Origin: Acidobacteriaceae bacterium
Lineage (GTDB): Bacteria; Acidobacteriota; Terriglobia; Terriglobales; Acidobacteriaceae
NCBI GenBank assembly: GCA_025462735.1
Contig: JAOAPC010000010.1
Span: forward strand, 1-64,000
Direction of reading: 5' to 3'
Length of the DNA stretch: 64,000 nucleotides
The notes below the pieces were generated by a model. The model made no database searches. It was given only the letters and a program-made list of their open reading frames with translations, and had not been told where the DNA came from. The position numbers and the translations under genes are program-made. The first letter of the stretch is position 1, and the number at the start of each line of letters is the position of its first letter. This document shows positions 1,964 through 60,208 of this stretch, in pieces.

Positions 1964-2257
1964 GAGGCCGCGCATATCGCCGACACCGATTCGAAAAGAG
2001 TCGCCAGCAGCCTTCTCGCTGTTCAGCTGACCCTTTGCCTGCTGTGGAGCGTTCACATCCTGTCTGCCCAAGCCCCACCGGCCAAAGCGGTCCCAAGGCC
2101 GGCGGCGCGGGCACATCGAGCCCCTCTGGGCAAAAAATCCGCGAATACGGGGGCGACGTCCCCATCCACGATCCAATTCCAGAACCTCATCGAACAATCG
2201 AAGATCAAGTTCAGGCTCAAGAACAGCGTCAGTCCGCAGCGGTACACGTTTGAAACC
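1964..2257 (+). other. In-frame N-terminal extension of the CRTAC1 gene without a conventional start codon
   Basis: Between the in-frame TAG at 1961-1963 and the first ATG at 2258 the frame stays open and clearly encodes the missing N-terminus: a hydrophobic stretch with a cleavage-like site (VQLTLCLLWSVHILSAQ, 2021-2071), then the FQNL...IKF...ETM segment that normally leads into the first FG-GAP repeat. There is no ATG, GTG or TTG codon in frame. A perfect AGGAGG at 1962-1967 lies eight bases before an ATC codon at 1976, from which a textbook signal peptide would start. Either ATC is the start, or the start codon was lost by mutation or sequence error. Confidence 0.7.
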
Positions 2258-3763
2258 ATGACTGGAGGAGTAGCGCTCTTCGACTACAACAATGATGGTT
2301 TGCTGGACATCTTCTTTACTAATGGCGCGGCCATTCCTTCGCTTGAAAAGAGCGATCCGAGTTACTCAAACCGGCTTTTCCGCAACAACGGCGATGGCAC
2401 CTTCACCGATGTAACTGAGAAAGCCGGCCTGCAGGGCATCGGCTATTCGATGGGAGTGGCTTCCGGCGACTACGACAATGATGGATTTGTCGATCTTTAC
2501 GTTACCGGAGTCAATCGCAACCAGCTTTTTCATAACAATGGAGACGGCACCTTCACGGACGTGACTGAGAAGGCGGGAGTCGGCGGTATCGTCCCTAACC
2601 TCGGCAAGGCATGGTCCGTAGCCGCGGGATGGTTCGATTACAACAACGATGGGCTGCTCGATCTCTTTGTGGTGAACTACCTCAATTACAACATCAAGAC
2701 CGCAACTCATTGTGTTCAACAAGGACTTCCGTCCTATTGTTCGCCGGTTGATTTTCTGGGAATGCCGAACATCCTCTATCGCAACAATGGCGACGGCACT
2801 TTCACCGACGTTTCCGAACAGTCACACATTTCTCAGTACGTTGGCAAAGGGATGGGTGTAGCGTTTGCCGATTACGATAACGATGGATTTACCGATGTCT
2901 TCGTCTCCAACGATACCTTCGAAAATTATCTTCTGCACAACAACGGCGATGGAAGCTTTACCAACGTTGCGATGCGCGCTGGGGTTGCGTATAACGCATA
3001 CGGCAACGCCATAGCCGGCATGGGCGCGGATTTTCGGGATGTCGATAATGATGGGAAGGCGGATATTTTTGAAACGGCGATGTTCGGCGAAGGCTTTCCT
3101 CTTTATAAAAACCTAGGGGATGGTCAATTTCAGGATGCCAGTGGCGCGGCAGGACTGAGCGCACTGACCAGCCGCTCAACCGCTTGGGGAGTGGGGATTT
3201 TCGATTTCGACAACGACGGAAACAAGGACCTGTTCACCGCCAACGCTGACATTCTGGACAACTCCATGGAGTTGGCGCACAGGCCCTATGCGCTTCCCAA
3301 TCAAGTTTTTCGTAATAAGGGCAATCTGACCTTCGAGGATCTGAGCTCAAAGGCCGGAACATCCTTCTCCGTTCCGGCTGCGCATCGTGGCGCAGCCTTT
3401 GGCGATCTCAACAACGACGGCAAAATCGATGTCGTCGTGACGGTTCTGAACGGGCCGCCAGAGATATGGATGAATCGTTCCAGCAGCCGAAACCACTGGA
3501 TCATTCTGAAATTGGTCGGCGTCAAATCCAACCGCGACGGGCTGGGAACAAAAGTCAAGGTAACAACTTCTCAGGGCACCCAGTACAACTACGTGACAAC
3601 GGCAGTTAGCTACAACTCTTCGAGCGACAAGCGGGTACACTTCGGGCTGGGCTCGGCCGACATCGTAGAAACTATTGCACTCACGTGGCCAAGCGGAATC
3701 AAGCAGGTTCTGAAAAATATCAAAACAGATCAGATCCTCACAGTAACGGAGAGCGCGCCCTGA
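2258..3763 (+). CDS. CRTAC1-type FG-GAP/VCBS repeat protein with ASPIC/UnbV domain
   Basis: From the first ATG the protein has 501 residues, but homology to the other copies here shows that the true N-terminus lies about 94 codons upstream (see 1964-2257), giving a secreted protein near 595 residues. Repeated calcium-binding blades of the DYDNDGxxDLY type occur near residues 8, 72, 128, 210, 268, 320 and 393, predicting an integrin-alpha-like beta-propeller. An ASPIC/UnbV domain fills 412-501, beginning NHWIILKLVG and including HFGLGSAD and WPSG. Role unknown; binding of carbohydrate or protein at the cell surface is plausible. It stands apart from the TPR and receptor genes and converges with 3782-5443, 18 bases away. 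Confidence 0.9.
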   Translation: MTGGVALFDYNNDGLLDIFFTNGAAIPSLEKSDPSYSNRLFRNNGDGTFTDVTEKAGLQGIGYSMGVASGDYDNDGFVDLYVTGVNRNQLFHNNGDGTFTDVTEKAGVGGIVPNLGKAWSVAAGWFDYNNDGLLDLFVVNYLNYNIKTATHCVQQGLPSYCSPVDFLGMPNILYRNNGDGTFTDVSEQSHISQYVGKGMGVAFADYDNDGFTDVFVSNDTFENYLLHNNGDGSFTNVAMRAGVAYNAYGNAIAGMGADFRDVDNDGKADIFETAMFGEGFPLYKNLGDGQFQDASGAAGLSALTSRSTAWGVGIFDFDNDGNKDLFTANADILDNSMELAHRPYALPNQVFRNKGNLTFEDLSSKAGTSFSVPAAHRGAAFGDLNNDGKIDVVVTVLNGPPEIWMNRSSSRNHWIILKLVGVKSNRDGLGTKVKVTTSQGTQYNYVTTAVSYNSSSDKRVHFGLGSADIVETIALTWPSGIKQVLKNIKTDQILTVTESAP

Positions 3764-3785
3764 GCCGCGCTGATATTTCTCTTAT
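3752..3785 (+). terminator. Possible intrinsic terminator overlapping the CRTAC1 stop
   Basis: AGCGCG (3752-3757) pairs with CGCGCT (3766-3771) around an 8-base loop containing the stop codon, followed by a T-rich tail (GATATTTCTCTTATTTC). The stem is only six pairs, so this is tentative. Confidence 0.4.
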
Positions 3786-5443
3786 TTCTGCGCAAGATTG
3801 GCCGACAAACGCTGCGCCAGCTCCGTTTGCTGATTGCGGAGGAGAAGGTCGACAAGTTCTTTCATGAGTTCAGGCTTGTTTCGCCCATACGCCGCGATGG
3901 TTTCGGCAGTTAAATCCGCATCCGACACTCTCCCCAGACGGAAGTAAGAATCGCAAAGCATGTAAAGCAACTCCGGAGTCGTGGTCCTGGACTTTGCCAG
4001 TTGTTCGGCCGCATCCGACCATCGCCCCTGATGGTAGCGAATCTCTCCCATCTCAGCGATCGCAGTTTGATAATTTGGATCATTCGCCAGCTCTGCACTG
4101 AATTCGCTCTCAGCTTTGTTCAGGTCGTCATTTTTCAGCGCAAGGATGCCTGCGTATGTATGTGCACCGCGAACCTTCGGATCGACTTCCAACGCATGAT
4201 GAAGATTGCGCAGGCCATCTTCTGTATCTTCCATGAAAAGATATAGCTTTCCAACGAACACATATGCATCGGCGGGAGTCGCGGGAGTTCCCTTGAAGTG
4301 TTCCCGATACAGCCGCAACGCATCCGCTTCGCGATGTTCCTCCAGCAATTGACGGGCCTGAGCCTTGATGGGGCTTTCGCGTTCCTCGCTCGCCACGGAG
4401 CGGACGAACGTCATCTGTTCCATCATCAACTGATGCAGTGCTGCCTCGTGCTGCGCGTCCGCTGTCCTGCCCATCGCAGCAAACGCCCGTGACAGATAGA
4501 AATGCGCCAATAGCCGCGTGGGGTCCAGCCTTAATACCGATTGCAATTTATCTACGGCGGCCGGATATTCCTTCAGTTCGACTTCGCATTGGCCGAGCCC
4601 CAACAACGACTCCACATCGTCGCTCTTGAATGTCAGGATGCGTTCAAAAGCATTACCGGCCTCTTGCCATTTGCCGAGCTTCACATTCGCGGTAGCCAGC
4701 AGTCGCAAGGATGTCACATCGTTAGGCTGGGATTGAACCGCACGAGCCGCATATTGCGCCGTGCCGGCAATATCCATCAATTTGTAATCCGTCGCAGCGA
4801 TGTCATAATCAATGCGCGGCAGCTTAGCATCAGAGCGCTGTGCCTTTAGCAGCCACCGCAGCCCCGCATTGCAATCCCCGGTGCCGCACAGCAGTTCTCC
4901 GTACTTTTGCCACACCGATATATTGTCGGGCTCGGCCTTCAAACTCCCCTGGATGGCGCGCAAAGCCAGGTTGTCCTGCCCATTCAGATGATAGGCCTGG
5001 GCCAGATAATATTGTGCATCTCCATCGCCCGGAAGAATCCGGATGCAATGCTTCAGAAGCTTGATGGCTTCTTCCTTTTGGCCCGCGCTCAGTTTATAGA
5101 TACCTGTTTTCAGCAGGAGATCCCCGTCGTTGGGCGCGAGTTTCAGAGCGTCTTCATAGGCGGCCGCCGCCTCGGAGGTGCGTCCCGTCTCCTCCAGCAA
5201 CATGCCCTTCAGCTTGATCGCCGGTACAAAATCCGGATGCTGCTCAAGCAAGCGGAGGACAAGATTCATTGCCTCCTGCCTGTCGCCATGCTGGGCGAGG
5301 TTGAGCGCCTGGTGGAATTGGCGCGTCAGCGGGGATTCGTTGGGATGGTTCGCGTTCTGCGCCCATCCAGCGGCCCCTAGGGCAACCAACAGCGCCGCCA
5401 AAAGCAGGATTGCACGGGGACGATTTGCAGTGCGGATGGCCAT
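3782..5443 (-). CDS. Secreted TPR-repeat protein
   Basis: A 553-residue protein built of tandem tetratricopeptide repeats after a Sec signal peptide (MAIRTANRPRAILLLAALL to AGWAQ). Repeats run from about residue 40 to the end, recognisable by the alternating A/G/Y pattern (for example SEAAAAYEDALKLAPND). The start at 5443 is chosen because the signal peptide begins there and the stop of the upstream CRTAC1 gene is one base away (TAG T ATG); the longer open frame upstream overlaps that gene and reads as nonsense. TPR superhelices bind other proteins, so a partner role for the adjacent CRTAC1 protein or the receptor encoded upstream is likely. Last gene of the minus-strand module 1. Confidence 0.9.
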   Translation of the reverse strand: MAIRTANRPRAILLLAALLVALGAAGWAQNANHPNESPLTRQFHQALNLAQHGDRQEAMNLVLRLLEQHPDFVPAIKLKGMLLEETGRTSEAAAAYEDALKLAPNDGDLLLKTGIYKLSAGQKEEAIKLLKHCIRILPGDGDAQYYLAQAYHLNGQDNLALRAIQGSLKAEPDNISVWQKYGELLCGTGDCNAGLRWLLKAQRSDAKLPRIDYDIAATDYKLMDIAGTAQYAARAVQSQPNDVTSLRLLATANVKLGKWQEAGNAFERILTFKSDDVESLLGLGQCEVELKEYPAAVDKLQSVLRLDPTRLLAHFYLSRAFAAMGRTADAQHEAALHQLMMEQMTFVRSVASEERESPIKAQARQLLEEHREADALRLYREHFKGTPATPADAYVFVGKLYLFMEDTEDGLRNLHHALEVDPKVRGAHTYAGILALKNDDLNKAESEFSAELANDPNYQTAIAEMGEIRYHQGRWSDAAEQLAKSRTTTPELLYMLCDSYFRLGRVSDADLTAETIAAYGRNKPELMKELVDLLLRNQQTELAQRLSANLAQK

Positions 5444-5444
5444 A

Positions 5445-7250
5445 CTAAGGAAGCTTGACGCGACGCTCAGGCAGTTTATTGGAAACCACTCCCTGCCCTT
5501 CGCGCACCACATAAAACCGGTCGGCAGACAGATTGGTGAGCGTTTCCTTTTTCCCGTCCGGCCACAAGACTTCAGCCTGATCGAGACGGTCATGTTTGCC
5601 CAGCCCGAAGTGTATGCGCAGATCGTGCTGCGACAGGTAACTTCCGCCGCTAAGGACTTCGCCCATCTGTACCAGGTCTCCGGCTGTCGCTCGTACGCGC
5701 GCATTCAAGGCCAGACGATTGTGCTCGCCTTCCAGTTGAAAACTGATCCAATGGTTCTGCGGGCCTCCTTCCGGACGCAGAATCATGGGCTTGCCCACCA
5801 GGTTTTCAACCACCGCCTCCATCTTTCCATCGTTGAAAAGATCGCCCACAGCAAGCCCGCGGCTTACCTGGCCAATCTGAATTGCATCTCCGACCAGCCG
5901 ACTGGCGTTCTTGAAGGTCCCGTCTTTTTGATTGACAAATAGAAGCTTCGGCTCCAGGTATCTGGCGGCGGTGTGAGCGTGGTCTACCTGCGGATACACA
6001 TGTCCGTTGACCAGGAAGAAATCCTCCCAGCCATCGTTGTCGAAGTCGACAAAGGCGTCGCCCCAGCCCACATAGCCTTGCGTGCCCCGCGCAATGAAAG
6101 AAGCGATCGACGTATCGGTGAAGTTCATCGCTCCATTGTTTATCCCTGCATCGTTGCGATACAGGGCGGCATACTCATTGTCAAAATGCGAAAGCAGCAA
6201 AGACATGCGACCGGTGTGCAGATAGTCTCCGAGGGCAACTCCCATGTTGGCCTGTTCAAATCCGTCCTCGTTCGCCGCCACGCCGCATGTCAACGCGATA
6301 TCCACGAACTTTCCTGTGCCATCGCCTTGATAGAGATAGTTCGCTTGCCCATCGTTGGTAACGAAAAGATCGAGCTTTCCGTCATTGTCGAAATCCGACC
6401 AGATAGCGGTCAGGCCATAGCGGCGCTCAGGATCGTCGACTCCGGATTTCTTTGACACATCGGTAAACGTCCCATCCCCGTTGTTGTGGTAAAGATTGTC
6501 GGGTAATCCCTTCAACCCGCGCGGGCCGCACTGGACATCGAGTCCCAGGTACTTGCATGATTTGCCAGAGCCGAATGCGGGCAGATCGTCCAGGTGAAAA
6601 TCCACATAATGCGATATGAAAAGATCCACCCAGCCGTCGCGGTCGTAGTCTCCAAAGGCCGCTCCCGTGGCCCAGCCAGAATCGCCGCCAAGTCCGCTGG
6701 CTTTGGTCACATCGGTAAATGTTCCATCGCCGTTGTTGCGATAGAGCACCACCCCGCCCATACAGGTCACTAGCAGATCAGGCCAGCCGTCGTTGTTATA
6801 GTCGCCAACTACAGCGCCCATCGCCCAGCAGGGATAGCCTACGCCGGCTTTCTCGGTGACATCCGTAAACGTCCCGTCCTGGTTATTGTGGAACAAGGCG
6901 CTCCGGGCCTTGATGCCATGCAGGGCCATTTCCACGCTCTGCGCATTCGTGAAGTAAATGTCGGGCCAGCCATCGCGGTCGTAATCGATCAGCGCGACTC
7001 CTCCGCTCATCGACTCCGCAATAAATTTCGCCTCGGGACTCGAAAGGTGTTCGAAATGTATGCCGGTGGAATCCGTGATGTCGACCAGACGCGGATAGTT
7101 GGCAAGGAGGCCGGTTGCCTTACTCTCGGCCTCCGCCTTTTGGCGCTCTGCAGGCGGCAGGGGGGTTGGCGTTCCCATTTGTCCCATCGCCACCGTATTC
7201 AGGCAGAGGATGAAAAACGCCACGCGCCATCGGAGAAACGCAGCGGCCAT
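5445..7250 (-). CDS. CRTAC1-type FG-GAP/VCBS repeat protein with ASPIC/UnbV domain
   Basis: A 601-residue secreted protein. The chosen start (ATG at 7250) follows GGAG by about eight bases and opens a signal peptide (MAAAFLRWRVAFFILCLN to AMGQ); an ATG at 7295, overlapping the upstream TPR gene by 11 bases, is an alternative. Calcium-binding propeller blades (DYDRDGWPDIYFTN, DYNNDGWPDLLVTC, DYDRDGWVDLFISH and others) fill the middle, and an ASPIC/UnbV domain spans about 499-601 with HFGLGKHD and LWPDGK. It sits between two TPR genes with a one-base gap to the downstream one, so the three are almost certainly one transcript. Biochemical function is unknown; calcium-dependent binding at the envelope is the natural guess. 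Confidence 0.92.
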   Translation of the reverse strand: MAAAFLRWRVAFFILCLNTVAMGQMGTPTPLPPAERQKAEAESKATGLLANYPRLVDITDSTGIHFEHLSSPEAKFIAESMSGGVALIDYDRDGWPDIYFTNAQSVEMALHGIKARSALFHNNQDGTFTDVTEKAGVGYPCWAMGAVVGDYNNDGWPDLLVTCMGGVVLYRNNGDGTFTDVTKASGLGGDSGWATGAAFGDYDRDGWVDLFISHYVDFHLDDLPAFGSGKSCKYLGLDVQCGPRGLKGLPDNLYHNNGDGTFTDVSKKSGVDDPERRYGLTAIWSDFDNDGKLDLFVTNDGQANYLYQGDGTGKFVDIALTCGVAANEDGFEQANMGVALGDYLHTGRMSLLLSHFDNEYAALYRNDAGINNGAMNFTDTSIASFIARGTQGYVGWGDAFVDFDNDGWEDFFLVNGHVYPQVDHAHTAARYLEPKLLFVNQKDGTFKNASRLVGDAIQIGQVSRGLAVGDLFNDGKMEAVVENLVGKPMILRPEGGPQNHWISFQLEGEHNRLALNARVRATAGDLVQMGEVLSGGSYLSQHDLRIHFGLGKHDRLDQAEVLWPDGKKETLTNLSADRFYVVREGQGVVSNKLPERRVKLP

Positions 7251-7284
7251 GACGTTCACTCCAGCGACGCTTGGCGCTCCGATC

Positions 7285-8481
7285 CTATTGTGCATCCTGC
7301 TCGTCCGCGCGAATTTCCTTGGGCTGAACCTGCAATTCTTTGTACAGTGCGCGCAGCTTATCTTTCATATCTTTAAATTTTTTGTAGAGTTCGACCTCGC
7401 GGTTGGCGTCTTCCGTTCGCCCCATCTTGCGATACAGCGTTGCCAGGCGGTAGTGGGCGGTGGCGTTGGTGGGCTCCAGTTTCACGGTGTCTTCTAGCAG
7501 GGACAGCGCCTTGTCCGATTGATTCATCTGAATCAAAGTCTTGGCCAATCCGAGCTTTGCATCCGCATCGCCCGGCTGCAACTCGACGGCTTTCGTGTAT
7601 TCCTTGTAAGCCTGCTCCGTATTTCCCTTTTGCGCGTCAATCTCGGCGAGCCTGAAGATCGACTTCTCGTTCTGAGGATCTTCCAGCAGCGCGGCGTGGT
7701 ATTCCTGTTCCGCCTCTTTTTTCGCGGTCTCGTCCGATGAGGTATGGAGGAGTTCAGCCAATTCGAAATGCACGCCAGGAAGATGCGGGTCGATGGCAAT
7801 TGCCTTCCGATATTGTGCGATGGCGCCGTTGGTATTTCCCTGCCGCGTATCTTCATGAGCCAGCAACTGATGCATTTGTGCGGATTCGGGCGCTGCCAAT
7901 GAAAGGGCGAGCATCGACTCGCCCGCAAGATCGGAATAGGTGCGGTAGGCGGCGTAGAGCACCTCCGGGTTATCGGGAGCTGCCTGCCGCAACTGCGCTA
8001 TGACGCCCGCGGCCTTCTCGAGGTCGCCACTTTGCGTGTAGAGGCCTACGAGCTCCAGACCAAGCTGCGTCTGAAATCGCAGATCCTGAAGCGCGGGGAA
8101 GGCACCTTCCATATCTTTGCGCGCATTGGCGAAGTCCAAGGTACGGCTCTCCGCCATTCCCAACAAACCTTGAATCTTCGCCAGGCCGGGTTGGCCCTTA
8201 AGGGCAGCACGAAAGTGGGGAATGGAATCGGCTGGTTTTCCTTGAAAGAAGAGCAGAACGCCCAGGTTTGCCTGCGCATCCACATTGTCGGGGTCGATGG
8301 CGACTGCGGCCTGAAACTCCGGAATAGCCAAGGCGGGCTTCTTTTCACGGAGGTAGCCGTCTGCTTTTTGGATGTGCGCCGCAAACTCCTGCTGCTTGTC
8401 TTCTGTCGCCTGAGAGAAACCAGATGTTGCGCAAAACAGCAGGAGGAAGCCCGCAGAGGCAATTCGATACTTCGGAATCAT
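7285..8481 (-). CDS. Secreted TPR-repeat protein
   Basis: A 398-residue protein with signal peptide MIPKYRIASAGFLLLFCATS ending GFSQ, followed by about nine TPR units; the consensus is visible in AIAQYRKAIAIDPHLPG and EQAYKEYTKAVELQPGDADA. The C-terminal 50 residues are a charged helix (LYKKFKDMKDKLRALYKEL). It heads the TPR-CRTAC1-TPR unit of module 1. A TATAAT only 14 bases before the ATG and the absence of a ribosome-binding site suggest a very short leader or a leaderless message. It resembles the TPR protein at 60209-61195 in length and repeat style, also next to a receptor gene. Likely a periplasmic or surface scaffold; this is inference. Confidence 0.9.
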   Translation of the reverse strand: MIPKYRIASAGFLLLFCATSGFSQATEDKQQEFAAHIQKADGYLREKKPALAIPEFQAAVAIDPDNVDAQANLGVLLFFQGKPADSIPHFRAALKGQPGLAKIQGLLGMAESRTLDFANARKDMEGAFPALQDLRFQTQLGLELVGLYTQSGDLEKAAGVIAQLRQAAPDNPEVLYAAYRTYSDLAGESMLALSLAAPESAQMHQLLAHEDTRQGNTNGAIAQYRKAIAIDPHLPGVHFELAELLHTSSDETAKKEAEQEYHAALLEDPQNEKSIFRLAEIDAQKGNTEQAYKEYTKAVELQPGDADAKLGLAKTLIQMNQSDKALSLLEDTVKLEPTNATAHYRLATLYRKMGRTEDANREVELYKKFKDMKDKLRALYKELQVQPKEIRADEQDAQ

Positions 8482-8495
8482 TCTGAACCATCCAG

Positions 8496-8501
8496 ATTAT
8501 A
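8496..8501 (-). promoter_or_regulatory. Candidate -10 element for the TPR-CRTAC1-TPR unit
   Basis: On the minus strand the hexamer is a perfect TATAAT; transcription would begin about seven bases downstream, within roughly ten bases of the ATG at 8481. No good -35 is visible at 16-18 bases, so the promoter may be weak or activator-dependent. Confidence 0.45.
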
Positions 8502-8528
8502 TAGTCGGGTAAATCATAGAGTATGACG

Positions 8529-8563
8529 CAAAAAGAAAGAGACGGCGACGAATCGCCGTCTCT
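8529..8563 (-). terminator. Intrinsic terminator of the TonB receptor gene
   Basis: On the minus strand AGAGACGGCGA and TCGCCGTCTCT form a perfect 11-bp stem (8538-8563) closed by a TTCG tetraloop, followed by TTTCTTTTT. It lies 22 bases after the stop of the receptor gene at 8585 and separates it from the TPR unit downstream. Confidence 0.88.
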
Positions 8564-8584
8564 GATGGTCGAACTGGTGGTTAG

Positions 8585-11500
8585 CTAGAACGACACACGC
8601 AAACTGAGCTGCAGGTTGCGCGCACCAGTAGTGACCCTACTGATACTGTCACTGCTTGCGTATGGGTCGCCCGCTGTTAGAGGAGCGCAGTTTTTGCAAT
8701 TACCGAGGCTTAGGCCGTCGGGAATGGCCAAGCTCTTGTGATTGAATACGTTTTGCGCATCGGCGCGGAATTCAATACTCATCTGCTCCCAAGGAAGCCC
8801 GAACGATTTGCCGGCGGACATATTGAAGACATTCATGCCAGCGCCGTAAAGGCTGTTTCTTCTCACGTTACCCCAGGTCCCGTCTGCCGGTTTGGTAAAG
8901 GCCGCCGGATTGAACCACCCGTTGATACCTTTGTGAGGAAGGTAAAGACTGACGCCGGGGTTGCGGTTTGGAAACGTCGTGCCTGCCAGCGAGTAGTTGG
9001 CCTGATCTCCCCTGACGGTGAAGGGTTCTCCGGTTTGAAGGATCACAGTGGTGGCAACCTGCCATCCCCCCACCACTTCATCCAGGAGAGAATTATTGTT
9101 CAGGAATGTCCTGCCCCTTCCAAAGGGCAGTTGATAAACCGCGTAGCCTTTGAAAGCATGGCGCACATCGAAGTTGGAGTTACTGTAGTTAGCCGAAGGA
9201 TCGTAAGCGTTTTGATAGTTCTGCGCTCCAGAACGGCTTCCCCATCCCGAGGAGTCCATGTCGTCAAGAAAGTGGGAAAACGCATAATTGAAGCTGAGAC
9301 TCAGCCCACGGGCCATCCGCTTCGTGATAGAAGCCTGGAGCGAATTGTAGTTCGAGATTGCATTCATCGTGCCGGCGGCGCCAGGCCCAATGCTCTGGTA
9401 GATCGGAAAGGGACGGAACTGCTGCGAGTTTGACGGAGTCCAGTTTTCCGGATGAACTTGATTGATGTCCACCGGGAAGGCAAGGTTGTAGCCGTGACTT
9501 CCTACATAGGCCAGTTGAACCATATAGTCTGAGGCTAACTGATGCTCGACTCCGAAGTTCCACTGGTGGATCTTGGGAACCTTGGCGTGGTACAGCTGAT
9601 AGTCAATACCCGAGTTATTGAAGCGTGTCGGATCTGTGGAACCAGTCGTGTATAGCAGTGGGGTACCTGAATCTTGTGGCGGCCCATTGTAGAACGAACT
9701 GGCCAGGACGGCATCGCCATTTCCTCCCAGAATAGCGGCCGGATAAATGCCATTGGTCGGATCGGTGTAGTTGCCCGTGGAACCGAATGAACCGCCCATG
9801 CCATGACCGTAGGTATCGAGGCTCCAGTTATAGGCATAAAGCCCATAACCGCCACGGACCGTCGTGCTGGGCCGCACAGCCCAGGCAAATCCAACGCGCG
9901 GCAGGAAGGTGTTATATGAGTTCGCCTCCAGCGCGGTTCGTCCATTGGCATGTGTGCTGGCAAACCAGGAAGCTCCTAACGCGTTAGGGGGTGTGGCACC
10001 GGGGTTGGGAACTGTTGGGTCGAAGGACGTGATGTTCCCGTGAATTTCGTTCCAGCCATGATTGATCTGGTAGCGCAGGCCAAGATTGATAGTCAGGTTT
10101 GGGCGAATTTTGAAATCATCCTGAACAAACATCTGCGGACTCTTCAGGCGAGCGCCGTATTCGGGGCTCTCGTTCGCCTGCCAGTTATTGATGTATCCCA
10201 GGAGAAAATCAGCGTATTCGAAACCGGTATTGGGGACTGTGCACGCGGCGCCGTTTGCAGCTGCGCCGCAGACAGCCGGGTTGGTCGTCCACTGCTTGGT
10301 GTATTGCCCCGAATACTGCATATTGCCCGCAGTCTTGTTTCCCCAGGCGGTAGAATTATCCCGATAGGCTAACAATTCTCCGCCGAAATGAAGAATGTGC
10401 TTGCCGCGGATCATGGTCACAACATCGGAATAGTCGAAGACATGTTCCTTGTAGATCGAATTGGTACCCGGGGTGAGCCATGAGTAGGGATAGGATCCGG
10501 TGGTTTCGAACCCTGGGATGTCATCCAATTTGCCAAACTGCCAGCCCAGTTGAGCGGCGTATCCTTTGGACAGTGAGCTATCCGTGAAGTAGTTCATCTG
10601 GTTGGTGTAGCCGACTCTGAACTCATTTATGGTAGTGGTACTGATGTTCCATACGTCGGTAACCTGTGCGTTGTTGTTGTCCACATGGCCTTGCTGGCAA
10701 CCTACCGGGCAGTTCGTAATAGAACTAAGGCCTGGGTAGGTGTAATCACCCTGGGTGTCCGACATTGATATTCGATTGTTCGAGGTTACGTTCCAATCCA
10801 AGCGCCCGAAGAACCGTGCCGCGGGGCTGGACTGCAGCTGGTTGTAGAACCAGTTGTTGTGCGGCTCTCCCTCACCACCAATGAACTGTCCGCCGGGAAT
10901 CGCAGTCAGGAAGGAAGGATGCTTGGCCGTGGTCGGGAAGAACGCCGTTTGGAAGGCATTGGCGACGGGGTCGAACAAGTTGGTCGGGATCTTGTTTCCA
11001 TTTCCGTATTCGGACGCAAAACTCTGTCGCACCGGATAGGGATTTCCCAGCGCGTCAAATGCGATCGTCTGAGTAGTGGGATCGAAAAGGGTGTTCATGC
11101 CGGCGAAGTCACCCGTAATATTGGCATCAGTAGGGAGGGTATTAAATCCGTGGCTATTGCCATGGTTCACAATCTGGTCATAGTTGAAATAGAAAAACAT
11201 CTTGTTTTTGATAATCGGCCCGCTGATCGCGCCGCCGAAGTTGTTGTAGCGAAGAAATGGTATTTGCCCAGTAGTGAAGTAGGGGTGGGCAGTTAACGCG
11301 TCGTTCTGAAAGTAGTCATAAGCGGTGCCGTGGAAGTTATTTGTTCCGCTCTTGGTGACCTGGTTGAAGATAATTCCGCCTATGCCATATTGCGCCGAGA
11401 AGGACGACGTATTCACCTGCAGCTCGGACACGTTCTCGAAAGTAGATGGGTTGGCGTTCTGGCTGTGCGAGAGTGTGGTTGTCGCGCCATCTGCCAAGAT

Positions 11501-12091
11501 GTTGCTATAAGGCAAGTTGCCATTGATCGCAACGGTCTGACCGGGATTGGATGTTGACTGGGAGCAACTGCCGTCGTTCACATCGGCGCAGCCTGCAGCG
11601 CCGGGCAGCAGAATGGTAAAGTTCTCCCAGGACCTGGTGGAACCAGTTGCCTGCGGCAGTCTGGCCATGGACTGCGAGTCGAAGGTGCTGCTTTGTTCGC
11701 CGTTCTCGGTTTGCAAGAGGGCCGCGTCTGAGGTGACCGTTACCTCTTCTGTCGTGGCGCCAACCTTCAATTCGCCGTTTACAGCTGTGAAACCGACCTG
11801 CACCGTGACCGGGCCGCGGACCAATTTCTCAAATCCGCCCTTGGTAAAGGTTAGGGTGTACCGCCCAGTAACGATCGAATTCGTATCGTACAGACCTGCA
11901 TCGTTCGTGGTTAAAGTCTTGATGACGCCAGTGTCGACATTCGTCACCATTACCGTGACGCCTTGGACGAGAGCCCCGGAGGAGTCAGTCACGGTGCCGC
12001 GGATGTCGCCGGCGTTTGTGCTCTGCGCAAAGCAAGCCCCGCTTCCAAAAACCAGAAGAAGGGGAAGGACCCATCGCTTTAAGTTCATCAT
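8585..12091 (-). CDS. TonB-dependent receptor with carboxypeptidase-regulatory-like domain (Oar-like)
   Basis: A 1168-residue outer-membrane receptor. Signal peptide MMNLKRWVLPLLLVFGSGAC to FAQ; then a carboxypeptidase-regulatory-like beta-sandwich (about 28-110: DIRGTVTDSSGALVQGVTV, TNDAGLYDT), a plug-like region, and a large beta-barrel ending in the aromatic C-terminus typical of outer-membrane proteins (LQLSLRVSF). GGAGG seven bases before the ATG supports the start. Receptors of this class are expanded in Acidobacteria and usually import bulky nutrients using TonB/ExbBD energy; the substrate is not readable here. Neighbours suggest glycans: two GH30 genes are divergent from it, and TPR/CRTAC1 genes follow on the same strand behind a strong terminator. 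Confidence 0.93.
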   Translation of the reverse strand: MMNLKRWVLPLLLVFGSGACFAQSTNAGDIRGTVTDSSGALVQGVTVMVTNVDTGVIKTLTTNDAGLYDTNSIVTGRYTLTFTKGGFEKLVRGPVTVQVGFTAVNGELKVGATTEEVTVTSDAALLQTENGEQSSTFDSQSMARLPQATGSTRSWENFTILLPGAAGCADVNDGSCSQSTSNPGQTVAINGNLPYSNILADGATTTLSHSQNANPSTFENVSELQVNTSSFSAQYGIGGIIFNQVTKSGTNNFHGTAYDYFQNDALTAHPYFTTGQIPFLRYNNFGGAISGPIIKNKMFFYFNYDQIVNHGNSHGFNTLPTDANITGDFAGMNTLFDPTTQTIAFDALGNPYPVRQSFASEYGNGNKIPTNLFDPVANAFQTAFFPTTAKHPSFLTAIPGGQFIGGEGEPHNNWFYNQLQSSPAARFFGRLDWNVTSNNRISMSDTQGDYTYPGLSSITNCPVGCQQGHVDNNNAQVTDVWNISTTTINEFRVGYTNQMNYFTDSSLSKGYAAQLGWQFGKLDDIPGFETTGSYPYSWLTPGTNSIYKEHVFDYSDVVTMIRGKHILHFGGELLAYRDNSTAWGNKTAGNMQYSGQYTKQWTTNPAVCGAAANGAACTVPNTGFEYADFLLGYINNWQANESPEYGARLKSPQMFVQDDFKIRPNLTINLGLRYQINHGWNEIHGNITSFDPTVPNPGATPPNALGASWFASTHANGRTALEANSYNTFLPRVGFAWAVRPSTTVRGGYGLYAYNWSLDTYGHGMGGSFGSTGNYTDPTNGIYPAAILGGNGDAVLASSFYNGPPQDSGTPLLYTTGSTDPTRFNNSGIDYQLYHAKVPKIHQWNFGVEHQLASDYMVQLAYVGSHGYNLAFPVDINQVHPENWTPSNSQQFRPFPIYQSIGPGAAGTMNAISNYNSLQASITKRMARGLSLSFNYAFSHFLDDMDSSGWGSRSGAQNYQNAYDPSANYSNSNFDVRHAFKGYAVYQLPFGRGRTFLNNNSLLDEVVGGWQVATTVILQTGEPFTVRGDQANYSLAGTTFPNRNPGVSLYLPHKGINGWFNPAAFTKPADGTWGNVRRNSLYGAGMNVFNMSAGKSFGLPWEQMSIEFRADAQNVFNHKSLAIPDGLSLGNCKNCAPLTAGDPYASSDSISRVTTGARNLQLSLRVSF

Positions 12092-13879: not shown

Positions 13880-14052
13880 TCTGCATTCTGTCGGCGTTGC
13901 GAGAATCGTCTTCAGCCGTAGCCGGGGGTTGCTGACAGACACGGTTCTGCCCTGCTCTTATCGTTTCGCGAATTGTAGTACTGCTATGGTTTGTCGTTAA
14001 TCCAATCATTGTCTTTCGAAAAAGATCGCGCCCTTTGTAAGTCGGAGTTCTC

Positions 14053-21168: not shown

Positions 21169-22194
21169 GTGGCTAACCATTTGCGCCTAATTATCAGTTG
21201 TGCACTGCTACTCAACTGGGCTGCGGTTTTGACGTGGTCACGCGTATCAGTCACAACATTTCTCAACGACGAAGTTGCCAGTTCGCCAAAGTCCTTCCAG
21301 CATGAAGGCAAGTCCCAGCAACGACCGCCTGCAGAAAATGTCCAAACAGTGCGCGCGTCCTTGCTGAATTGCCTGCAAGCCGGAAGGTTGGACGAAGCAA
21401 TCGAAGTTGGCCTTGACTCGGTGACTCGCTGGCCAAGGGACCCAGAAATTCGACATCTGCTGGGGCTCGCATACTTCAAGACGCGGCAGCCTTCGCTGGC
21501 GATAACTGAGCTGCAACAAGCCGAAGCGCTCGATGATTCAGATCCTGATATTCACTTCGATCTTGCGCTGGTGTACCTCGACCAGACCCAATATGCGCCG
21601 GCGGCGAATGAATTGGAGAAATCGATAAAACACGATTCAAGCAATGCTCTAGCGCATGTGCTCTTAGGACGCGCATATCAGAACACGAATCGCACTTTGC
21701 AGGGCATTGAGCAATTCAAGGAAGCTCTGAGAGTAAATCCCGCCGTGCAGCTCGGACATTACGATTTGGGCTTCGCGTACGCTAGTCTAGGACGTAATCA
21801 GGAAGCGCTCGCGGAATACAAGAAAGAGATCGCGCGCGAGCCCGAAAATCCAACTGTGCTCTATCAACTTGGCCACTTGCTGCTACAAACAGGGGATCTC
21901 AACTCCGCAAGTAAATACTTGAAGCGGGCCACTGAGATTGACCCGCAACATTCAGATGCGTTCTATGATCTGGGAAAGGCGCTGCTGCTCGCGGGAAATG
22001 CTGAATCGGCGCTGCCTCCGCTGGAACGGTCCGCGGCATTGAATCCCGCCGACCCAAGCACGCATTACCAGTTGGCCAGAGATTTTGACAAGCTCGGCAG
22101 GCGCGACGATGCACAGCGCGAATGGCAACAGTTTGCCGCGCTTAAGAAGGCGCAAGTGCAGACGGGAGGGATGGCCTCCGGCCAGTCCCAGTGA
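21169..22194 (+). CDS. Secreted TPR-repeat protein
   Basis: A 341-residue protein with a signal-peptide-like N-terminus (ANHLRLIISCALLLNWAAVL) and about seven TPRs (for example QPSLAITELQQAEALDDSDP and NQEALAEYKKEIAREPENP). The GTG start is chosen because it opens the signal segment; no strong ribosome site precedes it. Its TGA overlaps the GTG of the following CRTAC1 gene (GTGA at 22191-22194), so the two products are translationally coupled and probably made in similar amounts. This is the clearest sign here that TPR and CRTAC1 proteins function together. First gene of module 2. Confidence 0.9.
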   Translation: MANHLRLIISCALLLNWAAVLTWSRVSVTTFLNDEVASSPKSFQHEGKSQQRPPAENVQTVRASLLNCLQAGRLDEAIEVGLDSVTRWPRDPEIRHLLGLAYFKTRQPSLAITELQQAEALDDSDPDIHFDLALVYLDQTQYAPAANELEKSIKHDSSNALAHVLLGRAYQNTNRTLQGIEQFKEALRVNPAVQLGHYDLGFAYASLGRNQEALAEYKKEIAREPENPTVLYQLGHLLLQTGDLNSASKYLKRATEIDPQHSDAFYDLGKALLLAGNAESALPPLERSAALNPADPSTHYQLARDFDKLGRRDDAQREWQQFAALKKAQVQTGGMASGQSQ

Positions 22195-23981
22195 TTGCGC
22201 GTCCCTGGTCTCTGATATTTTTCCTTTTATCTGGCATCATCTTCGCGGCTGCCTTGACGCAGATGGCCGGATCTCCGCAGCAAAGCCAGAATCGCCGATC
22301 GGCTTCAGCACGCCCGCACCAAACTGCGCCCGCTAATTCGATCTCATTCGCTGACGTCACAAAATCCACGGGGATCGATTTCCATCTCACCTGCGGTAGT
22401 CTCGAGAAACGCTACATCATGGAAACAATGTGTGGCGGTGTCGCTGTGTTCGACTACGACAACGACGGCTGGATGGACATCTATCTCGTAAACGGCTCCA
22501 CGCTCGAGGATGTGCGCTCAGGTAAATGTCATACCGGAAAGCTTTATCGAAACAATCATGACGGAACGTTTACAGATGTCACGGCGAAATCCGGTCTCAC
22601 GCATTGTGGTTGGGGCTTTGGCGTGGCCGTCGGTGACTACGACAACGATGGATGGGACGATCTCTACATTACTTATCTTGAGGGCGGCGTGCTGTATCGC
22701 AACAATCGAGACGGCACGTTCAGCGATGTAACCGAGAAAGCCGGTGTGGGAAATCTTGGTCATTGGGGAACGAGTGCCGCCTTTGGTGACTACGACAATG
22801 ACGGCAATCTCGATTTGTACGTCGCGAATTATGTTGATCTCGACCTGAATCATCTGCCCGAATTCGGCAAAGGTCCGTTCTGCCAATATCGGGGAATTCC
22901 GGTCTCTTGCGGTCCGCGCGGGCTGAAAGGCGGTCGCGATCGTCTCTACCACAACAATGGCGACGGCACGTTCACAGATGTTACGGAAAAATTAAATATC
23001 GATTCCGGAAGCTACTACGGACTCGGCGTGCTTTGGCTCGATTACGACAAAGACGGCTGCCTTGATCTGTACGTCGCCAACGACTCCTCGCCGAGCCTGC
23101 TTTATCACAATAATTGTCATGGCGGATTTGACGAGGTCGGCGCACCGGCTGGCGCGGCATACAGTGCAGACGGGCGCGAACAGGCGGGCATGGGCATAGA
23201 TTCCGCGGACTACGACAATGACGGCTGGCCGGACATCGTAAAGACAAACTTTTCTGACGATAGCAATAACCTCTATCACAATGATCACAACGGACAGTTC
23301 ACCGATGGGGCGGGCCCTGCGGGGTTTGGTCCCATCAGCATTCCATTCTTAGGTTTTGGTATTAAGTTCGTCGACCTTGATAACGATGGCTGGCCAGATG
23401 TCTTTGTCGCGAATGGTCACGTCAATCCACAGGTGGATCAGCACTCATTCGGGGTCACGTACGCGGAACGCCCTTTCTTGTTTCACAATCTCAAGAACGG
23501 AAAGTTCGAAGAGGTCGGACTGCGCGCGGGAGCATCTCTGGCGCGGCGTTATGTCGGGCGCGGTCTCGCTTCTGCCGACTTTCAAAACCGCGGTGTCGAA
23601 GACATATTAATGACTGTGCTTGACGGTTCACCGCTATTGCTTCGAAACCGGGCAGCCGCCACTGGACACTGGCTCCTTATTAAGGCAGTGGGAACGGCAT
23701 CCAATCGCGACGGTTTCGGCGCTCAAGTTCAAGTAAAAGCGGGAAATCTGGTGCAGACTGGGGAAGTTCGCGCGAACTCGAGTTTTGAATCCGCTAGCGA
23801 CCCTCGGCTGCACTTCGGGTTAGGCGCAGCGGACCATATTGACGAGATTACGGTCCATTGGCCGTCAGGCAGGGTCGATAAGATCGGGACGGAAAATGCG
23901 AACCAAGAACTGATAATTAAAGAAGGAGCAGGGGTTACTGCGAGAATTCCGGCGAAAATTACTCGGCCCGCTTCAAGATGA
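22191..23981 (+). CDS. CRTAC1-type FG-GAP/VCBS repeat protein with ASPIC/UnbV domain
   Basis: A 596-residue exported protein. Signal segment MIARPWSLIFFLLSGIIFAA; then the conserved entry region (SFADVTKSTGIDFHLTCG, YIMETMCGGVAVFDYDND), repeated calcium-binding blades (DYDNDGWDDLYITY, DYDNDGNLDLYVANY, DYDKDGCLDLYVAND, DLDNDGWPDVFVANGH), and ASPIC/UnbV at about 492-596 (HFGLGAADH, HWPSGR). A pair of cysteines around residues 226-240 (FCQYRGIPVSCGPRG) is shared with the copy at 5445-7250 and may form a disulfide. It overlaps the TPR gene by four bases. Downstream, 365 bases away, begins the module 2 TonB receptor. Confidence 0.93.
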   Translation: MIARPWSLIFFLLSGIIFAAALTQMAGSPQQSQNRRSASARPHQTAPANSISFADVTKSTGIDFHLTCGSLEKRYIMETMCGGVAVFDYDNDGWMDIYLVNGSTLEDVRSGKCHTGKLYRNNHDGTFTDVTAKSGLTHCGWGFGVAVGDYDNDGWDDLYITYLEGGVLYRNNRDGTFSDVTEKAGVGNLGHWGTSAAFGDYDNDGNLDLYVANYVDLDLNHLPEFGKGPFCQYRGIPVSCGPRGLKGGRDRLYHNNGDGTFTDVTEKLNIDSGSYYGLGVLWLDYDKDGCLDLYVANDSSPSLLYHNNCHGGFDEVGAPAGAAYSADGREQAGMGIDSADYDNDGWPDIVKTNFSDDSNNLYHNDHNGQFTDGAGPAGFGPISIPFLGFGIKFVDLDNDGWPDVFVANGHVNPQVDQHSFGVTYAERPFLFHNLKNGKFEEVGLRAGASLARRYVGRGLASADFQNRGVEDILMTVLDGSPLLLRNRAAATGHWLLIKAVGTASNRDGFGAQVQVKAGNLVQTGEVRANSSFESASDPRLHFGLGAADHIDEITVHWPSGRVDKIGTENANQELIIKEGAGVTARIPAKITRPASR

Positions 23982-24346
23982 GACGAGCTGTATTTGGCAA
24001 TGGCCAACAACACCGATTGGCCGAACCCCTGAGTCTTGACATTTCCTTCGGAAATCATTCACCCCACGGCAAATAGCACTGGCCCTCGCCCACGTCCCTG
24101 GAATTCAGAAATAACGATTGTGCTCCCTTTGCTCTCGCAATCCAGATATTCTCCTGAAAAAACAACTCTTTACAAATTTATAAGTTGCTTGACAGTGACC
24201 ATTGAGTAGTAGCAGAATGTCCGCGATTAATTCGTAGGGGTTCTGATTCTGCAGTCACTTCGTGGGTGACGACTCAAATGCGTCAAGCCAGACATTCTCA
24301 CGCGCTTTCTCCCGCGCGAACGATTCTTCGGAAAGAGGGTAGGCAA
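23982..24346. other. Intergenic region with receptor promoter and leader
   Basis: No gene is seen. It holds the promoter at 24189-24218 and a leader of about 120 bases before the receptor ATG. Open frame upstream of 24347 lacks signal-peptide character and is treated as leader. Confidence 0.55.
24189..24218 (+). promoter_or_regulatory. Candidate sigma70-type promoter of the TonB receptor gene
   Basis: TTGACA (24189-24194), 18-base spacer, CAGAAT (24213-24218, four of six consensus bases). An AT-rich stretch (CTTTACAAATTTATAAG) precedes the -35, resembling an UP element. The layout mirrors the promoter of the receptor gene at 8585-12091. Confidence 0.5.
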
Positions 24347-27300
24347 ATGACAAAGCTGTGGCTTTGCTTGGTTTCGTGCTGCGTGCTGATGTTCGCATTA
24401 ACTGCGGTTAGCCAAGTGCAGAACGGACAGTTCACCGGAACGGTGACCGACCAGACCGGAGCCGCCATACCCAATGCAAAAGTCACGGTCACCAATCTTG
24501 GAACAAACCTGACCAGCAGCGTGACGACCAATCAGAGTGGCGGTTACATGGTCAGAGAGTTGCCGATCGGCACTTATAAAATTTCGGCCGAGGCGCCGGG
24601 GTTCCGAACGAAGGTTGACTCAAACGTGCCGGTGAATGCCGGTGTGGTATCGCACGTTGACTTCAAGATGGAAGTGGGACAGACGACGCAAGTCGTTGAA
24701 GTGACTGGCGAGGCGCCTACTATTCAAAGCGATGACTCGCGGCTTTCGACGACGATCGACGCGGCACAAATTTCCAACCTGCCCTTAAACGGCCGCAATG
24801 TCTATGATCTGATGCAACAGGCGGCGGGCGCGGTTGATGTTGAAGGCGTACTTACTGAGAATGGGCACAACACGGTGGTTAACGGGTTACGCGAGAACTT
24901 CAACGGGTTCCTGGTTAACGGCGCGTCGAATAAGGGATTGAGCGGCGGCCCGCAGAACACGCCGATTGAAGATACCGTCCAGGAATTCCAATTGCTGACC
25001 TTGAACCAGTCAGCGCAGTACGGCAATAGCGCCGGTTCGATCACGAATCTGGTGCAGAAGACAGGCACAAACGCGTTACATGGCAGCTTGTGGGAGTTTC
25101 TGCGCAACGACAAGCTCGACGCCAATACCTATTTCGCCAACCAGCAGGGTGATGCAAGGCCACCGTTGCATTTCAACCAATTTGGCGGCACCATTGGCGG
25201 CCCCATCGTCAAGGACAAGGTATTTTTCTTTGGCTCCTACCAGGGAGACCGATTTAAGACCTCCACGCTTCCCTCACCGACCGTTGCCGAAGGCCCTGAA
25301 TTCCGCCAGGCCATAATCAATGCGGCGGGGTTGGCCCCGGGAGGCCAAGAGTCAGTAGGGCAGCTGCTCTATAGTCAATTCGCCCCAAATGTTAAGGGAA
25401 CACCATTCCTTACGGTGAACGATTATCTATCGGGTTTCTACAGCGGCACCGGTTTTGGTACGGTCGCAGAGTACGAAGATCCAAGCACTAGTCCCACTGG
25501 TTTCGGACCGTATGGCGATCCAAACCTCGGCACCCGCATGACGAACCTATTCAACGCCCTGAACGCCACGCCTCTTGGGCTGGACACACCGATGCTTTAC
25601 AACACTATTAACATTCAAAAAACAAACAATCTGGGAAATCTATTCGACGGGAATGAGGCGTCGGGAAGAATTGACTGGAATGCCAGCAGCAAAGATCGCG
25701 TGTTTGCGCAATTCAACTGGTCACGCCAGAACACACTGACGCCGGCCGCCAATAGCCGCGGATTTACCAACCCAACACGTTTCATCGCGCCCAATGGCCA
25801 ATTAGATTGGACGCATACCTTTGGGCCTCACGTAATTAATGAGGCGCGCGCCGGTTATTCGGGTAGCTATTCCAGATACGTTCCGTCCGCCCCTGGTGTG
25901 CCCTCTATCTACATCGGGGACTATGCCGGAACTATGGGATTTGGCTCCTATAATGGCTACCCTCAGTTCTTTAAGGAGCACATTTACAACTATGCGGATA
26001 TGGTCTCGATCAACCATGGTTCGCACAACATCAAAATCGGCGGGGAGATACGGCGTAACATCGAGAATTCCGAGTTCAATGTAGCCCGTCCCTCTTATTA
26101 TTTCTACGATCCATTTTTCTTCGCAGTCGATGCTCCATACGGCATGTCTGCCGGGGTTGATCCTGGCTTTGTATCCAAGAAGTTGGCTCACCTGGCCACT
26201 AACAAGCGCCATTGGCGGAACATTGAGTTTGGCGCCTTCGTCCAGGATGACTGGAAGGCTACACGTAAGTTAACTCTGAACCTTGGCCTTCGCTACGATC
26301 TGTTTCAGCGGCATCACGAGGCGTCGGGCTTGGCCACCACATTTCTTCTCGGACCTGGCCAAAATCTGATTGACAACATTACCACCGGTGCCGGACAGAT
26401 TCATGATGCGAACGCACCAGTAGGCTCCCCCGCCTGTCCTTCCGGAGTGTTGGGCCCCGATGGGGTACACACCATCGACCAATTATCTGTACTAGCCGGC
26501 ATCTGTGGTTCAGGGGGATTCGCGCCGTCATCGAGTCTCGGGAAGGGAGATCATAATAACTTCGGACCGAAAATCGGCTTTGCCTATGATGTGTTTGGCA
26601 ACGGCAAGTCAGCCATCCGCGGCGGTTTCGGCGTTTCCTACGAGGGGACTTTGTATAACCCCCTGTCGAACTCGCGCTGGAATCCTCCGTATTATTCTTT
26701 CAACTCTGCTCAAGATCCCTCACTTGGTACAGGATGCGGGACAACAGCAGGTTGCATTGTCTATTACGGCCCGCAGCCTGCGCTCGGAACCGGCGGATAT
26801 TCGACTGCTGCGCCGAGCATCACTGGCGCTGGGTTTCCTAATAATTTCCAAGGAACGGATACGACTTACACGGCGGTTGGAAACGTGTCGGGCTGGAACC
26901 CTGCGAACCGAGACCAAGCCAATCTGACCGGCATCATCTTCCCGAAGGGAGTTCGAGATCCCTATGTCTATAACTACTATCTCGGCATTCAGCACGAAAT
27001 AGTCCCACGTGTCGCCTTAGAGGTGAACTATGTGGGAACGACGGCTCATAAACTGTTCCGGGCGCAACAGGTCAACCGGATTCCCGGCGGGGCCCTCTGC
27101 GTTGACGGATACGGGAGTTGCAGCTCAACTGATGCGGGCGTCAGCCTGGTGAACGGAGTGCCATGTATGAGGGACCGATTTGGGCGACTCCTATGCTCCC
27201 AAAAGGACGCTGCGGGTGTAACCAACACCACAGGACGCCTCAATCCGAATTATGGAAAACTGCGGGTCTGGGAAAACGTTAACAACTCCATCTACAACTC

Positions 27301-28087: not shown

Positions 28088-28102
28088 CCGGAGGGAAGCT
28101 GC

Positions 28103-28147: not shown

Positions 28148-28163
28148 GGGATGAGGTCCACTG

Positions 28164-33292: not shown

Positions 33293-33328
33293 ATGTGGCA
33301 GGCTTCGAGTGGTATGGAACGTCAAAAA

Positions 33329-56494: not shown

Positions 56495-56522
56495 TTGACC
56501 AAGGTCATTGACCTGCTATATA
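56495..56522 (+). promoter_or_regulatory. Promoter of the module 3 TonB receptor
   Basis: TTGACC (56495-56500), 16-base spacer, TATATA (56517-56522). A TGACC-AA-GGTCA inverted repeat overlaps the -35 and a T-rich tract precedes it. The leader to the ATG is about 50 bases. Confidence 0.6.
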
Positions 56523-56524
56523 GC
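56514..56524. promoter_or_regulatory. Candidate GntR operator, receptor side
   Basis: TGCTATATAGC, extended by a following A to the 12-bp palindrome TGCTATATAGCA. It covers the -10 of the receptor promoter, so a bound regulator would exclude RNA polymerase. Confidence 0.68.
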
Positions 56525-56576
56525 ATTGCGCATCCCTTTGTGGGCTGAAAAACAAGTTCTTCCCGGAGGTTCTGAG

Positions 56577-60176: not shown

Positions 60177-60208
60177 GGCAGGCGTTGACCACGCCTGCCT
60201 TTTCTTTT
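60177..60208 (+). terminator. Intrinsic terminator abutting the next gene's ATG
   Basis: GGCAGGCGT (60177-60185) pairs perfectly with ACGCCTGCC (60191-60199) over a 5-base loop, followed by TTTTCTTTT. The ATG of the TPR gene begins at the very next base, so the hairpin may act as an attenuator that lowers expression of the downstream genes. Confidence 0.85.

Follow-up and report, generated by a model that had tools for sequence, protein, structure and literature searches.

Oar-type TonB-dependent receptors with TPR and CRTAC1 genes in an Acidobacteriaceae genome: a candidate SusD-free uptake module

Acidobacteria are abundant in many soils, and proteins of the poorly understood CRTAC1 family occur from bacteria to mammals. 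Here we describe a gene module in the genome of an Acidobacteriaceae bacterium (4.36 Mb in 24 contigs), found in the 64,000-nucleotide stretch that we call the window (bases 1-64000 of contig 13). Each of three copies in the window combines an Oar-type TonB-dependent receptor with genes for tetratricopeptide repeat (TPR) proteins and for CRTAC1 propeller proteins. At close to an even chance, and hence tentatively, we read the module as a TonB-dependent uptake system that works without SusD and in which the TPR and CRTAC1 proteins would be accessory partners of the receptor. The trio was not found described in the titles or abstract openings of the papers that literature searches listed; papers cited below are represented by excerpts.

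Linkage of CRTAC1 genes to Oar-type receptors

The earlier note on this DNA had stated that its reading would be refuted if the families lay together no more often than their abundance predicts, and a count in five genomes of the same family, the source genome included, did not refute it. Twenty-five of the 38 CRTAC1 clusters have a receptor within 8 kb, where 6.5 are expected (p about 4e-11), and for 16 of the 38 a receptor barrel is no more than 5 kb away (4.7 expected). Clusters of MacB genes, counted as a control in two of these genomes, gave 3/31 at 5 kb (3.5 expected) and 5/31 at 8 kb (5.0 expected), whereas 14 of the 19 CRTAC1 clusters in the same two genomes have a receptor within 8 kb. 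This linkage, with its two-genome control, rules out chance co-occurrence within the family. The source genome holds 28 receptor genes (after merging 34 rows), as well as 16 UnbV_ASPIC rows and one CRTAC1 gene cut at a contig edge (L005), while the distribution of UnbV_ASPIC over the phylum is patchy (64 of 149 genomes of Acidobacteriota).

We also collected 80 named loci, many of them on short contigs. Three lack a CRTAC1 gene above the profile threshold, which leaves 77 (65 from Acidobacteriota and 12 from other phyla). L-numbers such as L091 and L098 label the collected CRTAC1 loci, and G139 one same-family genome. An Oar-type receptor lies within 5 kb of CRTAC1 in 27 of the 65 Acidobacteriota loci against none of the 12 from other phyla. 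Receptors were scored with 61 candidates per genome; a survey limited to 10 candidates in most of its genomes gives no receptor counts. A phylum-wide sample adds 40 stretches, all kept in the receptor comparison, of which 33 enter the neighbour counts, the other seven having no CRTAC1 above the profile threshold. The association is strong in the family and present in other Acidobacteriota, and with Oar-type receptors it is not seen elsewhere.

Relatives keep the order of the genes. The nearest named match among those listed is L091, from an Acidobacteriaceae metagenome genome (68% identity in the best CRTAC1 segment), with the order receptor>TPR>CRTAC1>TPR><CRTAC1. This is the five-gene order of the first copy, down to a convergent CRTAC1 gene at the same place and a 13-pair stem in the equivalent receptor-TPR gap. 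Copy 2 has the order TPR>CRTAC1>receptor>TPR with two convergent genes behind it, and L098 keeps this order; its convergent genes were scored as TPR proteins only. When the 67 receptors of a tree are labelled by whether a CRTAC1 gene lies within 5 kb, the label changes 11 times against 21.4 when shuffled, with none of 500 shuffles as low; the receptors outside the source genome were mostly collected via their CRTAC1, which biases these labels. An 11-row group containing the copy 1 receptor is CRTAC1-linked throughout (support 88, not starred). The copy 1 receptor groups with L091 and L051 (receptor>TPR>CRTAC1), that of copy 2 with L098 and L062 (TPR>CRTAC1>receptor>TPR), and that of copy 3 with L153, a locus with a receptor, CRTAC1 and a GntR-type gene and, by score, no TPR gene. 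Receptor and CRTAC1 distances correlate over 38 pairs (r 0.38, none of 5000 permutations as high), a correlation that comes mostly from close relatives.

SusD (PF07980, PF14322) was found in none of 31 genomes, these being the source genome and 30 relatives, 18 of them at least 90% complete; Bacteroides served as positive control. A SusD profile built from four sequences also matched none of the TPR proteins. The post of SusD would thus be vacant, and to this extent the earlier proposal that CRTAC1 and TPR proteins act as accessories in the SusD role finds partial support. CRTAC1 as the stand-in is not supported: CRTAC1 coexists with SusC-SusD in three phyla, at one locus each. Hymenobacter volaticus (Bacteroidota) has SusC>SusD>CRTAC1-type protein, annotated as a VCBS repeat protein, Gemmatirosa (Gemmatimonadota) has SusC>SusD>CRTAC1>CRTAC1>SusC>SusD, and a Marinimicrobia genome has SusC>SusD>CRTAC1. 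Replacement of SusD by CRTAC1 is therefore rejected as the simplest reading, and CRTAC1 would rather seem to be a component additional to SusD. For the place of SusD the TPR protein is a better fit because SusD itself is built on TPRs, with three at the N terminus of the family structure and a fourth later (PMC2954216).

Architecture of the three copies

Gene identities in the window were assigned by a Pfam domain scan (Table 1), which recovered each gene of the receptor and TPR-CRTAC1-TPR series first noticed at 3782-12091. The strong terminator reported after the receptor was found as well, at 8563-8538 between the receptor stop and the TPR start. A scan of the whole region gave 14 terminator-like sites against 11.7 in shuffled sequence, so we limit the claim to this strongest one. 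The one-base gap between CRTAC1 and the last TPR gene is confirmed: the CRTAC1 stop TAG (5447-5445) is followed by one base and then by an ATG at 5443. That TPR gene is present. Its open reading frame reaches up to 5704, but this is just the most distant of the possible starts, and the gene is probably 3782-5443. Four genes of copy 1 thus stood, and a fifth, the convergent CRTAC1 gene, had been overlooked. It ends 18 bases from TPR gene 3782-5443. Upstream of its first ATG (window 1960-2258, plus strand) runs in-frame, signal-peptide-like coding sequence with no ATG, GTG or TTG, which points to either an unusual start codon or an error in the sequence.

Table 1. Features of the three module copies in the window
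Copy	Feature	Position	Strand	Basis
1	Oar-type TonB-dependent receptor, 1168 aa	8585..12091	-	Pfam
1	Intrinsic terminator between receptor and TPR gene	8538..8563	-	11 pairs, 7 G-C, T-rich tail
1	Exported TPR protein 1, 398 aa	7285..8481	-	Pfam; signal-peptide-like N terminus, no lipobox pattern
1	CRTAC1 (FG-GAP propeller and UnbV_ASPIC), 616 aa	5445..7295	-	Pfam and structure model
1	Exported TPR protein 2, 553 aa, signal-peptide-like start	3782..5443	-	Pfam; start position
1	Second CRTAC1, convergent	2258..3763	+	Pfam
2	TPR protein	21169..22194	+	Pfam
2	CRTAC1, frame overlaps TPR gene by 4 bases	22191..23981	+	Pfam
2	Oar-type receptor	24266..28087	+	Pfam
2	TPR protein with N-terminal CarboxypepD_reg-like stretch (30.6 bits, below the Pfam cut-off of 32.3)	28164..29198	+	Pfam
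3	Oar-type receptor	56508..60149	+	Pfam
3	TPR protein	60185..61195	+	Pfam
3	CRTAC1, Tat-like signal (TRRQF)	61221..62942	+	Pfam
3	Second CRTAC1, continues beyond window end	62933..64000	+	FG-GAP in window part

The recurrence of the three ingredients in copy 2 (21169-29198) and copy 3 (as 56508-64000) likewise holds by Pfam. The gene that runs off the end of the window was scored as CRTAC1 in L022, and its UnbV_ASPIC domain lies at contig 13 position 64406. Two convergent sulfatase-TPR genes follow copy 2. Three proteins of the sulfatase superfamily, encoded at 29202-33325 (minus strand) and 35305-37263 (plus strand), all end in a TPR domain, and in this genome TPRs seem to be often attached to proteins of that kind.

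The copy 1 receptor matches CarboxypepD_reg (PF13620, E 3.7e-15) and the OMP_b-brl_4 barrel (PF25183, E 1.3e-194). A signal peptide is followed by CarboxypepD_reg at residues 30-102, a TonB-box-like EEVTVTS at about 115, a plug-like region, the barrel and a C-terminal F; the TonB-box-like motif and the plug-like region are visible across 21 aligned receptors. Pfam gave no match to the plug PF07715 at 0.001, and a sequence search of the PDB none at E 0.01. The structure model is mediocre, with a predicted local distance difference test (pLDDT) of 65 and a predicted template modelling score of 0.63. The 50 matches listed for it are TonB-dependent transporters (Z 28-32), and in nearly all of them the alignment starts at about residue 118-127 and runs to residue 1168. 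Matches from Foldseek and a second aligner include FusA, BtuB and FhuA, and a levan-utilisome transporter is also among the matches. With BtuB1 of the BtuB1-BtuG1 complex (8blw) the model gave Z 29.1 and a root mean square deviation (r.m.s.d.) of 3.9 over 563 aligned residues. TonB_C yields 19 rows in the genome and no match on the contig of the window, in a search that did not cover ExbB and ExbD.

FG-GAP repeats followed by UnbV_ASPIC were identified in the CRTAC1 genes starting at 2258, 5445, 22191 and 61221. The protein of 5445-7295, the sole CRTAC1 modelled, gave a pLDDT of 90.5, and its best structural match is murine CRTAC1 (9etn; Z 41.6, r.m.s.d. 2.2, 459 residues aligned, 21% identity). 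Such a propeller may bind calcium. The next matches are fungal GlcNAc-binding lectins with Foldseek, at a low template modelling score (about 0.35 of query), and LGI1 with the second aligner; the lectins give a hint, and no more, that CRTAC1 might bind sugar. Two cysteines of the propeller, at residues 247 and 256 in 5445-7295, are present in at least 90% of 53 aligned CRTAC1 proteins and could form a disulfide or a metal site. Signals resembling those of twin-arginine translocation (Tat) occur in 22 of 173 CRTAC1 proteins but in a single one of 112 TPR proteins and in none of 65 receptors, which suggests that some propellers may be exported folded and perhaps metal-loaded.

TPR and CRTAC1 genes are tightly coupled. 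Same-strand neighbours in the order TPR>CRTAC1 number 50, with a median gap of -4; in 39 of these pairs the gap does not exceed 20 bases. Those in the order CRTAC1>TPR number 22, with a median gap of 8. Every frame was taken to begin at its most upstream possible start, which overstates overlaps, and pairs more than 600 bases apart were excluded. A same-strand TPR neighbour of CRTAC1 is found in 27 of the 65 named Acidobacteriota loci, 7 of the 12 from other phyla and 15 of the 33 phylum-sample loci. For comparison, TPR genes make up 7 of 260 control genes. Natural TPR-CRTAC1 fusions occur in the source genome (L024, 1292 residues) and elsewhere; in ten long CRTAC1 proteins with TPRs, the repeats precede the propeller in eight and follow it in two (L105 and L135). 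Because of the coupling and the fusions, we consider the TPR and CRTAC1 proteins to form a pair. The NCBIfam names listed for the TPR proteins stayed below cut-offs and were rejected, except for a generic TPR domain on 7285-8481. In the alignment, the CRTAC1 protein of L105 (1811-5704) has a stretch between its propeller and its C-terminal TPRs that resembles a thioredoxin/AhpC-type domain.

Glycan enzymes and cytochromes near CRTAC1

Two tandem GH30 glycoside hydrolase genes (12455-15459, by Pfam) lie on the other strand, divergent from the copy 1 receptor. Annotated records were examined for 7 of 104 matched, plus 1 from another search. Among them, two cultured Acidobacteriaceae provide four plasmid loci, and a glycoside hydrolase is present in all four. 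On pACIX902 of Granulicella tundricola the order receptor>CRTAC1>carboxylesterase>GH30>GH28 is accompanied by GH88, an alginate lyase, a TPR gene and a multihaem cytochrome. On pACIX901, CRTAC1>TPR stands beside GH88 and GntR genes and is faced by receptor>TPR>CRTAC1>CRTAC1, the order of copy 3 save for one small hypothetical gene. In Acidisarcina polymorpha, pACPOL3 carries receptor>CRTAC1>TPR with GH172, LacI and fucP, and pACPOL4 carries TPR>CRTAC1 with GH27.

Glycoside hydrolases account for at least 13 of 98 non-core neighbours of loci with both receptor and CRTAC1 and for at least 2 of 98 control genes (p 0.003), these counts being lower bounds taken among the first 25 families on each side. 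The neighbours scanned were 98 of 137 (125 drawn at random and then filtered by length and size) and the control genes 98 of 219. A seeded count, with plasmid CRTAC1 loci as seeds, gave carbohydrate-active enzymes in 6 of 43 stretches near a receptor and in 2 of the 89 remaining ones.

A second recurrent CRTAC1 neighbourhood was observed in L024 (7301-15766), L062, L064 and L155, and partly in L047, L056 and L163. It contains a c-type cytochrome with five CxxCH motifs, CRTAC1 and, in several loci, a TPR-CRTAC1 fusion. The cytochrome has a C554/MtrC-like domain and C-terminal TPRs (one was scanned), and the fusions end in a tail of some hundred residues with no Pfam name. In L024, which belongs to the source genome, a receptor, the pentahaem-TPR protein, CRTAC1 and the fusion run in one direction. 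On a Phaeobacter plasmid (L177, 5863-8784) CRTAC1 is convergent with a cytochrome c peroxidase gene; a xylose transporter, a ROK regulator and an aldose epimerase lie in the vicinity.

Possible working of the module and alternatives

If the module is an uptake system, the Oar-type receptor would be its TonB-dependent transporter, and the exported TPR and CRTAC1 pair would catch a ligand or hand it over. The TPR protein would hold the docking position, as the TPR-built SusD does on SusC, and CRTAC1 could be a propeller that binds the ligand or acts like a lid, comparable to BtuG on BtuB. The ligands might be plant or microbial glycan fragments that differ from copy to copy.

Known systems offer partial parallels. 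Like SusC-SusD, the module sets a large TonB-dependent transporter with a CarboxypepD_reg-type domain beside an exported TPR-built partner, with glycoside hydrolases and sugar regulators near some of the loci. It differs in that no SusD was found, the barrel is PF25183 and not PF00593, and lipoboxes are few. SusCD carries accessory glycan-binding proteins (PMC11658791). In the vitamin B12 system of Bacteroides, BtuG, a beta-propeller, forms a lid on the TonB-dependent transporter BtuB (PMC10404256), and the match of the receptor model to BtuB1 extends this parallel; BtuG is likened to CRTAC1 as a propeller only. As differences, BtuG is a surface lipoprotein, the ligand of its system is known, and no TPR partner is named in the excerpt of the source (PMC10404256). 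Oar of Myxococcus xanthus has a CarboxypepD_reg extension, a plug with TonB box and a barrel (PMC6434023); the module receptors share the extension and the barrel and, as their plug-like region and TonB-box-like motif suggest, perhaps the rest. Oar differs in its tie to protein secretion and in having exbB and exbD genes adjacent (PMC11658791), whereas the module receptors have TPR and CRTAC1 neighbours. Animal CRTAC1 and LOTUS share their fold with the bacterial protein 5445-7295, as the match to 9etn indicates; their roles in animals differ, as far as the excerpts tell, and the bacterial context is one of TPR protein and receptor.

Several observations weigh against the uptake reading. Four of the 12 CRTAC1 clusters of the source genome have no receptor within 8 kb, and the linkage in G139 alone is not significant (3/7 at 8 kb, p 0.11). 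In the phylum-wide sample a receptor was present in 16 of the 40 stretches around CRTAC1 and in 5 of the 20 shifted controls, which is not a significant excess (p 0.20); together with the receptor-free loci from other phyla, this rules out a universal association. Among the 26 source-genome receptors alone, the CRTAC1-linked ones cluster weakly, 115 of 2000 shuffles giving as low a count. For divergent pairs the correlation of receptor and CRTAC1 distances falls to r 0.11, a value that 133 of 5000 permutations reach, and direct co-evolution of the two sequences is not demonstrated. The 20 same-strand neighbours in the order receptor>TPR have a median gap of 74.5, and in copy 1 the terminator also parts them. 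SusD was matched by profile in 1 of the 80 named CRTAC1 loci, that from Marinimicrobia, and CRTAC1 on a Spirosoma plasmid does not adjoin SusCD. A simple lipobox pattern was found in 7 of 112 TPR and 12 of 173 CRTAC1 proteins. With so few, surface anchoring is doubtful, and a surface lid would need another anchor; a loose pattern, applied to ten window proteins, matched only TPR protein 21169, at residue 11, ahead of the hydrophobic stretch. GH3 genes lie near CRTAC1 in 1 of 40 cases at 8 kb (1.1 expected) and give no support at that distance as a marker of glycan context; at 12 kb the count is 4 of 40 (1.6 expected, p 0.07). What glycoside hydrolases tell about the module is thus mixed. Lastly, a same-strand neighbour with at least four CxxCH motifs occurs in 14 of 110 CRTAC1 loci against 1 of 260 control genes.

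A wider proposal, which we rate as rather doubtful, takes CRTAC1 as a general accessory propeller of large CarboxypepD_reg TonB-dependent transporters in at least four phyla. SusC-SusD-CRTAC1 would work with SusD and Oar-TPR-CRTAC1 without it, a plain TPR protein doing the job of SusD by independent evolution.

TPR and CRTAC1 might instead be an independent exported pair that serves several enzymes, its nearness to receptors arising from shared abundance in catabolic islands of Acidobacteriaceae and from joint inheritance. This would fit the lack of an Oar-type receptor within 8 kb in all 12 loci from other phyla, seven of which keep a same-strand TPR gene, and in 35 of the 65 named Acidobacteriota loci, many of them on short contigs. 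It would also fit CRTAC1 genes that adjoin multihaem cytochromes, cytochrome c peroxidase or hydrazine-synthase-like genes (PMC12758564). Yet the linkage of CRTAC1 to receptors far exceeds that of MacB, and receptor groups keep their CRTAC1 despite reshuffled gene order. CRTAC1 also accompanies SusC-SusD at one locus in each of three other phyla, and one such locus (L165) is among those 12. We consider an independent pair unlikely.

Two further explanations appear improbable. In the first, the receptor works outward and exports the CRTAC1 proteins, the TPR proteins or both. The receptor shares the N-terminal CarboxypepD_reg with Oar, which was shown by experiment to be needed for secretion of the protease PopC (PMC6434023), and the CRTAC1 proteins look exported and mostly unanchored. 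TPR-CRTAC1 pairs occur, however, in loci without an Oar-type receptor, and with catabolic enzymes and sugar regulators among the neighbours import suits better. In the second, just as improbable, TPR-CRTAC1 is a periplasmic or surface redox or assembly helper for c-type cytochromes and other exported enzymes and the receptor supplies a metal or cofactor, which the gene row of L024 and the bias of Tat-like signals towards CRTAC1, possibly a sign of cytoplasmic cofactor loading, would favour, but 96 of the 110 loci have no same-strand multihaem neighbour and none of the open reading frames called in the window has two or more CxxCH motifs.

The source genome and its relatives encode dozens of Oar-type receptors, for which we found no record of a cargo. 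If the reading as a SusD-free uptake module is correct, it would propose an accessory machinery for some of these receptors and suggest how they manage without SusD. For CRTAC1, it would also offer a defined bacterial context for testing what the propeller binds.

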